Below are positions 14,734-32,825 of a stretch of DNA of 64,000 nt, piece by piece. The DNA comes from an uncultured Bacteroidota bacterium (GTDB lineage Bacteria; Bacteroidota; Bacteroidia; Flavobacteriales; Flavobacteriaceae). Location: NCBI GenBank assembly GCA_913060705.1, contig CAJXTX010000005.1:1-64000 (forward strand), given 5' to 3'. The translations under genes were made by a program, and so were the position numbers. Each line of letters begins with the position of its first letter. Position 1 is the first letter of the stretch. The notes under the pieces are model-generated. The model was given only the letters and a program-made list of their open reading frames with translations, was not told where the DNA came from and searched no databases.

Positions 14734-14734
14734 G

Positions 14735-14809
14735 GGTGGAAGACCGGGCTCGAACCGGCGACCTCTAGAACCACAATCTAGCGCTCTAACCAACTGAGCT
14801 ACAACCACC
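14735..14809 (-). tRNA. tRNA-His (GTG anticodon)
   Basis: Minus-strand cloverleaf. D stem GCTC/GAGC, anticodon arm CTAGA-TTGTGGT-TCTAG with anticodon GTG, T arm GCCGG-TTCGAGC-CCGGT. A G precedes position 1 (base 14809) opposite C73, the histidine identity element G-1. CCA is not encoded. The acceptor stem as read has two adjacent U-U oppositions (positions 5-68 and 6-67). Confidence 0.93.
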
Positions 14810-32189: not shown

Positions 32190-32263
32190 GGCGAGGTAGC
32201 TCAGGCGGTTAGAGCGCAGGATTCATAACCCTGAGGTCGGGGGTTCAATTCCCCCCCTCGCTA
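32190..32263 (+). tRNA. tRNA-Met (CAT anticodon), probably elongator
   Basis: 74-base cloverleaf: acceptor GGCGAGG/CCTCGCT (G1-U72 wobble), D stem GCTC/GAGC, anticodon arm CAGGA-TTCATAA-CCCTG, T arm GGGGG-TTCAATT-CCCCC, discriminator A, no encoded CCA. It lacks the three G-C pairs at the base of the anticodon stem and the 1-72 mismatch of initiators. A lysidine-modified tRNA-Ile(CAT) is the alternative. Confidence 0.9.
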
Positions 32264-32273
32264 CAACAAAAAC

Positions 32274-32306
32274 AACCACTTTGTTCGAAGAACAAGGTGG
32301 TTTTTT
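32274..32306 (+). terminator. Terminator of tRNA-Met
   Basis: 13-base stem AACCACTTTGTTC / GAACAAGGTGGTT (one G-T pair) with loop GAA and a T6 run, starting 11 bases after the tRNA. Confidence 0.85.
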
Positions 32307-32350
32307 ATTTACAGATAGGTCGAGCTTGCTTGAACCTATCTGTAAATAAA
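32304..32350. repeat. 17-bp perfect inverted repeat
   Basis: TTTATTTACAGATAGGT (32304-32320) and ACCTATCTGTAAATAAA (32334-32350) around a 13-base centre that itself holds AGC-TT-GCT. It follows the tRNA terminator and precedes the tandem repeat. No gene is encoded; it could be a second terminator or the end of a small inserted element. Confidence 0.8.
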
Positions 32351-32359
32351 AAGGCAGCT

Positions 32360-32568
32360 AGCGGTGCACAGCACAGCTAGTGGTTGTTTTTGATGTAGGC
32401 TACTCCCCTAGGGACTCATCGCTCACCCTCGTAGAGTGGGGAGCGGTAATTCATAAAACAACAGCGGTGTTGCGCACAGCTAGTGGTTGTTTTTGATGTA
32501 GGCTACTCCCCTAGGGACTCATCGCTCACCCTCGTAGAGTGGGGAGCGGTAATTCATAAAACAACAGC
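32360..32568. repeat. 103-bp tandem direct repeat, two copies, gene-free region
   Basis: Copy 1 is 32360-32462 and copy 2 is 32463-32565, with three further matching bases to 32568. They are identical except a 4-base block (CACA versus TTGC at positions 8-11 of the unit). Each unit can fold: GTTGTTTT...ATG pairs with CAT...AAAACAAC at the ends, and CTCCCC/GGGGAG or CGCTC/GAGCG pair inside. I see no open frame with a credible start. Together with 32264-32359 and 32569-32633 this is the only stretch above 300 bases without a gene. Confidence 0.9.
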
Positions 32569-32582
32569 TATGTATAAAACAA

Positions 32583-32611
32583 AAAAGGCAGCCCTTTATG
32601 GACTGCCTTTT
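32583..32611 (-). terminator. Terminator of the cold-shock gene
   Basis: Stem AAAAGGCAG / CTGCCTTTT; on the minus strand it is followed by a T run, 23 bases after the stop codon. Confidence 0.85.
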
Positions 32612-32633
32612 GTTAAGCAAATATATTAGTCGT

Positions 32634-32825
32634 TTATAGCATTTCTATATTCGCAGCTTGAAGACCTTTTTTACCTTGCTCCTCGCTGTAAGAAACAGCG
32701 TCTCCTTCTTTAATAGTTAGGCCTTTTAAAGCGGTTACGTGAACGAAAACGTCTTCGCCAGTTTCGTCGTTAGTGATAAAACCAAAACCTTTGGTTTCAT
32801 TGAAAAATTTTACTGTACCATTCAT
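32634..32825 (-). CDS. cspA: Cold-shock domain protein (CspA family)
   Basis: 63 residues, single OB fold. RNA-binding motifs RNP1 (KGFGFI) and RNP2 (VFVHVTAL) are intact. Acts as an RNA chaperone. The 100-base interval to the upstream purC holds no gene and probably forms a long 5' leader, as is usual for regulated csp genes, though I see no definite promoter there. Closed by its own terminator. Confidence 0.95.

Follow-up and report, generated by a model that had tools for sequence, protein, structure and literature searches.

A putative family of tRNA-linked structured RNA elements in Bacteroidota, seen from a tandem repeat behind tRNA-Met

Introduction

Integrative elements, including prophages, ICEs and P4-type satellites, are found at the 3' ends of tRNA genes. 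The module described here resembles them in that the 3' part of a tRNA is targeted, the 3' end is duplicated at some loci and tandem arrays occur, but it differs in measuring about 150-190 nt, in having no gene seen within it, in accompanying many tRNA species per genome and in its conserved RNA fold. A further likeness is offered by a free-standing GIY-YIG gene (locus L032, G210:C1:2757609-2760721; PF01541, 3.3e-16; genomes, contigs, loci and families are numbered with G, C, L and f), which is flanked by tRNA-Met on one side and, on the other, by a second copy of the tRNA-Met 3' half with a terminator beyond; this second tRNA copy is also interrupted by a hairpin (by eye), whereas the module is without such a reading frame. 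In rRNA operons, the familiar processing stalks that RNase III cleaves likewise consist of long inverted repeats flanking a structured precursor RNA, but the stem of the module lies 3' of the tRNA, encloses three hairpins and is known here from sequence, with cleavage only proposed. REP/REPIN sequences and MITEs are short palindromic noncoding repeats as well, whereas the module is tied to tRNA 3' ends, on one strand, and carries a copy of the cognate T-arm. Flavo-1 (RF01705) and other Bacteroidetes RNAs in Rfam are structured RNAs of the same phylum, to none of which the module has a match at gathering score.

The analysis started from a tandem repeat in a stretch of 64,000 nucleotides (hereafter the window; positions 1 to 64,000 of contig CAJXTX010000005.1, assembly GCA_913060705.1, an uncultured member of the Flavobacteriaceae). 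We propose, with a probability of roughly 70% for the explanation as a whole, that this repeat belongs to an unnamed family of tRNA-linked structured RNA elements in Bacteroidota. An earlier reading of the letters alone, the first-pass annotation, had stated that no family known to it names the repeat, in agreement with Rfam 15 (4227 families), which at the gathering cut-off returned only tRNA (RF00005) in the window and 20 other loci. A literature search of open-licence PMC papers found no description of such elements, which may be described elsewhere, and nothing describing them was seen in a 104-motif survey (PMC2864571) or in a microbiome survey (PMC8040213); with this reservation for the scope of the literature, the family is apparently undescribed. 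In these bacteria, structured RNA would sit behind many tRNA genes, although these are among the best annotated features of genomes, without a name in Rfam.

The element at the tRNA-Met locus

The repeat starts 95 bases after tRNA-Met and precedes a convergent cold-shock gene. As had been claimed, it consists of two head-to-tail 103-bp copies (32360-32462 and 32463-32565; 96% identity, ungapped repeat finder), and their four differences do fall into a single 4-base block; Tandem Repeats Finder detects a single array in the whole window, at 32371-32568, with a period of 103, 100% matches and a score of 396. The feature had been delimited to 32360-32568, where the repeat indeed lies, but the full element is larger and starts at the tRNA 3' end. 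Inside each unit, 20 bases are the inverse complement (95%) of the tRNA end and trailer (repeat finder, I2/I3), and the 103-bp unit corresponds to the 3' portion of this larger element, present twice in tandem. Read along the tRNA strand, the layout is tRNA, a, hp1, hp2, X, a', M and a T-arm copy whose loop is interrupted by hairpin P, followed at some loci by the rest of the tRNA 3' end, the trailer and a terminator. The parts in the window are as follows.

32190-32264, plus strand: tRNA-Met (CAT), host tRNA of the element (ARAGORN; Rfam RF00005, 67.9 bits)
32262-32277, plus strand: a, 5' strand of helix P1, last tRNA bases and trailer (16 pairs, three with double-sided changes; inverted repeats I2/I3)
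32274-32306, plus strand: hp1, terminator-like hairpin, stem and T-run (fold of 32265-32320, z -4.50)
32278-32298, plus strand: tip of hp1, helix P2 of the junction (covariation alignment, helix 2)
32299-32355, plus strand: hp2, helix P3, long palindrome with a CUUG-type loop (25 pairs, six double changes; hairpin z -6.46)
32357-32381, plus strand: X, helix P4, copy 1 of the X hairpin, with a loop of three bases (10 pairs, one double change)
32382-32397, plus strand: a', copy 1, inverse complement of the trailer, 3' strand of P1 (inverted repeats, alignment)
32398-32410, plus strand: M, C-rich linker, copy 1 (by-eye comparison with other loci)
32411-32452, plus strand: T-arm-like segment interrupted by hairpin P (GGGACTC - P - AATTC), copy 1 (by eye)
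32453-32462, plus strand: ATAAAACAAC, a partner in the previously described unit hairpin (sequence; full second trailer copies at other loci)
32463-32484, plus strand: X hairpin, copy 2, holding the 4-base difference (sequence, repeat finder)
32485-32500, plus strand: a', copy 2 (inverted repeat I3)
32501-32565, plus strand: M, interrupted T-arm-like segment and putative trailer remnant, copy 2 (tandem repeat finders)
32583-32611, no strand assigned: inverted repeat between element and csp, right-hand limit of the element (I4, repeat finder)
32634-32825, convergent to the element: cold-shock gene csp (Pfam CSD)

By its form, hp1 would act as the terminator of the tRNA, and an A-run in hp2 pairs with the U-run behind hp1. 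Each unit had been thought to close into a hairpin of its own; the GTTGTTTT/AAAACAAC pairing on which this was based is present, but the fold of a single unit is not significant alone (z -1.41 on the plus strand, 18 of 200 shuffles folding equally well; z -1.66 on the minus strand, 14 of 200), and the covarying partner of a' is the tRNA trailer upstream, not a segment within the unit. In light of its relatives, the GTTGTTTT/AAAACAAC pairing may represent a' facing what is left of a second trailer copy, and ATAAAACAAC would be that remnant.

A link to the flanking genes had also been suggested, of which the tRNA part was right; neighbourhood is the only tie to csp that was found. With regard to csp regulation, cspA came up in a permissive Rfam scan, below the threshold (39 bits, cut-off 78) and confined to the csp side. 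The inverted repeat at 32583-32611 is likely the csp terminator. A TATATTTG box (window 32618-32625, minus strand), which we take to be promoter-like for this phylum, lies between the csp stop codon and the csp terminator in the five species compared below.

Covariation at the same locus across the genus

Of the genus's 11 genomes, five carry a homologous unit in the corresponding place, all with the same order of START-like domain gene, tRNA-Met, unit and csp; two copies are found in G000 and G005, and one each in G007, G008 and G010. The trailer varies among these species and a' varies along with it, apart from single mismatches in G000 (A.A) and G008 (G.A). The consensus fold from the tRNA end to a' is a four-way junction composed of P1 (a with a'), P2 (the tip of hp1), P3 (hp2) and P4 (X), in which P1 encloses the three hairpins. 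In the five species, 97.7% of 300 cells are paired in this fold, compared with a mean of 91.0% for shuffled controls and 38-56% when slid by 1-3 columns, an advantage over the slid controls that is partly due to the fold having been derived from the same five sequences. The compensatory changes that the first-pass annotation had proposed to look for in relatives are there, with 11 of the 60 pairs changed on both sides (21 cells). Judged by this sequence comparison, the structure of the element is kept by selection in the window's genus.

These data bear on two simpler explanations. A chance local duplication in a single genome would be in keeping with the unit sequence occurring at one place in its own genome, but it is refuted by the homologous units in the genus and by the same architecture at many tRNAs (see below), which leave it a negligible probability. 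Alternatively, the inverted repeats might matter at the DNA level only, being kept alike by template switching or cruciform correction and duplicated by slippage, of which palindromes and tandem copies are typical products. The mismatches between a and a' agree with such an account in having no strand bias (seven of the tRNA-strand type, five of the opposite type and two others), but compensatory changes also occur in hp2 and X, and the G.U pairs of hp2 lean strongly toward the tRNA strand, as detailed below, so that a purely DNA-level origin is very unlikely.

The same architecture behind other tRNA genes

A covariance model built from seven units (R1) matched, among 397 genomes of the family, only two besides that of the window, both with arrays behind a tRNA-Met(CAT) of another type, which is read as initiator tRNA; within the genus, weak matches lie behind tRNA-Ser and tRNA-Pro. 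An alignment of three tRNA-Pro loci was poor and was not used. Since R1 matched so little, tRNA neighbourhoods were compared directly, by matching each trailer with the next 70-160 nt in G000, G005, G009 and G214 (126 matches). An inverted match to the own trailer with a score of at least 12 was obtained for 26 of 124 tRNAs, against none of 2308 controls with swapped trailers; as these tRNAs include four preselected loci of other genomes, two of them among the 26, the count is 24 of 120 without these four. With a score of at least 11, the numbers are 32 of 124 and five of 2308, respectively. The distribution is patchy, with 6/18 tRNAs in G000, 10/34 in G005, 13/38 in G214 and a mere 1/30 in G009 at this score; G207 has 10/35 (35 of its 36 matches covered, own-trailer comparison only). 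The small-genome relatives G053, G101 and G187 gave no inverted match of 10 or more at loci covering part of their tRNAs. Within the window itself, tRNA-His (14734-14808) is followed by a terminator-like hairpin, its inverted score is 7, and no element was seen behind it by eye.

In the 32 modules, a' begins at +84 to +126, and arrays contain several a' copies per locus. Multiplication of this kind, together with a structure beginning at the tRNA 3' end, could be accommodated by an independent small RNA, either a junction RNA freed by RNase P/Z and acting in trans, or a' serving as antisense to tRNA trailers. Trailer and a' are locus specific, though, which makes a shared target in trans hard to see, and we regard this alternative as unlikely.

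The folds of the two strands were compared for 42 modules. In 41 of them, the segment from a to a' has its more stable fold on the tRNA strand (mean -59.5 vs -51.5), and its G.U pairs number 98 on the tRNA strand vs 17 on the opposite one, compared with 115 vs 40 for the tRNAs themselves. Among the 29 modules that fold cleanly into three branches, the G.U counts are 4 vs 0 for the hp1 tip, 43 vs 5 for hp2 and 6 vs 0 for X; in the other 13, the minimum-energy fold is not three-branch. A further set from pattern scans (score of at least 10, two modules of the first set left out) favours the tRNA strand in 13 of 15 cases (p 0.005), with G.U pairs at 22 vs 9. Loci free of modules fold better on the tRNA strand as well (70 of 103), as terminators should, and part of the bias near hp1 is therefore unspecific. 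The M-P part has no bias toward the tRNA strand, or a weak one in the opposite direction, the tRNA strand having the lower energy in 14 of 42 modules (p 0.03). Given that G.U pairs favouring one strand mark a structured RNA, it is very probable, from covariation and strand bias in these sequences, that the family consists of RNAs structured on the tRNA strand, and the earlier suggestion of a small structured RNA gains support accordingly. A hammerhead-like reading of the minus strand (GUGAUGAGUCCC..GGGGGAAAC, seen by eye in some copies) was dropped, because the core is not kept in all copies and the strand bias favours the other strand; a consensus fold of seven units on the minus strand has double changes in two of 22 pairs.

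Copies of the tRNA 3' end and the question of mobility

Beyond a' lies the linker M, and then hairpin P set in an apparent T-arm copy of the same tRNA (by eye). When scored against the own tRNA 3' end, this copy reaches at least 7 in 29 of 42 modules, compared with 224 of 1654 swapped comparisons, and at least 8 in 13 of 42, compared with 66 of 1654. It is weak at many loci, and at the window locus the match taken alone (score 6) is not above control. Longer direct copies of the tRNA 3' end, beginning at the T-loop, are present at six loci, with lengths of 56 nt in L167, 17 in L267, 19 in L294, 55 in L386 and at least 77 in L255 and L266, where the query ended; in L130 and L144, the copies begin 2 and 6 bases further in, respectively. 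The copy extends through trailer and terminator in L255, L266, L386, L130, L144 and L167. Direct tRNA 3'-end repeats at both element ends are not visible at the window locus. In G003, the trailer, hp1, hp2 and the start of X, with a 10-N gap in the element, lie between tRNA-Met and a second tRNA-Met 3' end, right of which stands the native terminator that directly follows the tRNA in G009 and G006 (by eye).

The repetition of the tRNA 3' end from the T-loop at six loci suggests insertion or duplication there, and the elements rather probably arose in this manner. Taken further, the module may be a non-autonomous mobile element, a noncoding stretch of about 150-190 bp that is inserted into the T-loop, regenerates the 3' end of the tRNA and depends for its movement on a recombinase or homing enzyme acting in trans. 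This explanation, which is possible but which we hold with reserve, finds backing in the direct repeats (17 to at least 77 nt), in the filled arrangement of G003 as compared with G009 and G006, in the patchy distribution and in the GIY-YIG gene of L032 described above. It is weakened by the gap inside the G003 element, by the selection still acting on the structure in the window's genus and by the search for mobilisers, which covered PF01541 (GIY-YIG) and PF00078 (reverse transcriptase). In the window's genus, G000, G005 and G009 have one GIY-YIG match each, that of G005 within a frame of 657 codons, and none for reverse transcriptase. Between 25 genomes carrying the P pattern (defined below) and 25 lacking it, GIY-YIG counts do not differ (154 vs 159 matches), and reverse transcriptases occur in four of the former vs eight of the latter. 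Neither family is thus associated with the P pattern, and both were rejected as mobilisers; the elements are too short for a mobiliser gene to lie within. The label MITE-like, also used in the first-pass annotation, fits only by half: related elements sit mostly behind tRNA genes, the unit sequence occupies one locus in its own genome, so that dispersal independent of gene class is not seen, and neither searched family is associated, but the direct repeats at some loci do point to insertion. A mobile origin at some loci is likely. With a P hairpin closing each unit, integron cassettes (attC sites, marked by R boxes and accompanied by an integron integrase) are a conceivable comparison too.

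Tandem GIY-YIG genes were also observed, beside a tRNA gene in G207:C1:2033966-2034783 (spacing of about 307 bp), as well as in G310:C1:2585524-2587156 (about 355 bp) and G110:C1:1044211-1045458 (about 349 bp).

Distribution across Bacteroidota

One common type of P was scanned for with the pattern GGATCACGAN{3,12}GTAATCC. Matches were obtained in 27 of the family's 397 genomes, belonging to 22 of 237 genera, compared with two genomes for the reversed-pattern control, and in 23 of these 27 the pattern lies 79-560 nt behind a tRNA on the same strand; of the remainder, two matches are tRNA-less and coding-like, and the other two fall at the ends of contigs. When 375 genomes of the class were scanned, the pattern turned up in 10 (one already counted), six behind tRNAs (families f6, f24, f29 and f39), three without tRNA and one at a contig end. 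All these counts are lower bounds, as the window's own genome lacks a match and the pattern hence misses types. Among 115 occurrences of P (possibly with double counting, as the stretches partly overlap; contig-end matches included, five tRNA-less loci excluded), there are 37 distinct inner sequences, 30 of which form an inner stem of at least two pairs, with many pair types.

In viral contigs, the P pattern was found in 86 stretches, and none of the 80 examined has a same-strand tRNA within 1500 nt upstream; one viral stretch, L326, resembles P in sequence. A distant DNA search returned two short weak matches each for phages and plasmids. Exact-pattern scans gave no match in the genome contig collection or in the viral one. 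Another such viral scan yielded three stretches without tRNA, which were read as chance, and another of the genome contigs yielded six matches, five of them without tRNA in the stretch examined.

Five genomes carry the element within a tRNA cluster, where it separates tRNA-Tyr from tRNA-Gly. The TAnnTTTG box, presumably the Bacteroidetes -7 element, is absent within 70 nt upstream of tRNA-Gly in four of these five, and the arrays inside tRNA clusters hint indirectly at co-transcription.

A possible role in tRNA maturation

As to function, we favour, though tentatively, a domain that acts in cis in the processing of read-through tRNA precursors. Most transcripts would stop at the hp1 terminator. 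Because hp1 and the junction share bases, the two are mutually exclusive, and because a' lies beyond the terminator, the junction could form in read-through RNA only. In read-through or polycistronic RNA, refolding would draw the trailer into P1 and the U-run of the terminator into P3, so that a long stalk would stand immediately 3' of the tRNA. A long perfect stem in this position suggests a processing stalk, which an RNase III-like double-strand nuclease would probably cleave, allowing the tRNA 3' end to mature.

Combining this role with the T-loop copies, one may imagine tRNA-addressed RNA elements that have spread between tRNA genes across Bacteroidota by T-loop insertion, each with a copy of the host T-arm, rebuilding terminator and trailer into a four-way junction and being kept because the RNA controls, or does not harm, tRNA maturation; this wider picture is possible, though somewhat less likely than not. 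If transcribed, the module would be a new component of tRNA precursor processing, and a basic step of tRNA making in Bacteroidota may thus include an unrecognised RNA part; if mobile, it would be an unusually small element addressing many kinds of tRNA genes. The comparison also shows that tRNA trailers are strongly constrained in their pairing, so that the 3' maturation of tRNAs in Bacteroidota becomes accessible to direct tests.

Other rearranged tRNA 3' ends

Three further arrangements were noted in the course of the survey. In G214, the loci L187, L205, L206, L210 and L212 show a second type of tRNA-3'-end repeat, in which direct repeats of 21 to at least 83 nt are separated by spacers with a GTCCACCGGAC-like palindrome. 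At L046 (G234:C112:28291-31365), a palindrome-interrupted copy of tRNA-Met stands just upstream of the intact tRNA-Met (by eye). Behind a tRNA-Arg, L400 (G127:C1:2998300-3000300) holds a mosaic array composed of T-arm/P units, X hairpins and tRNA pieces (by eye).
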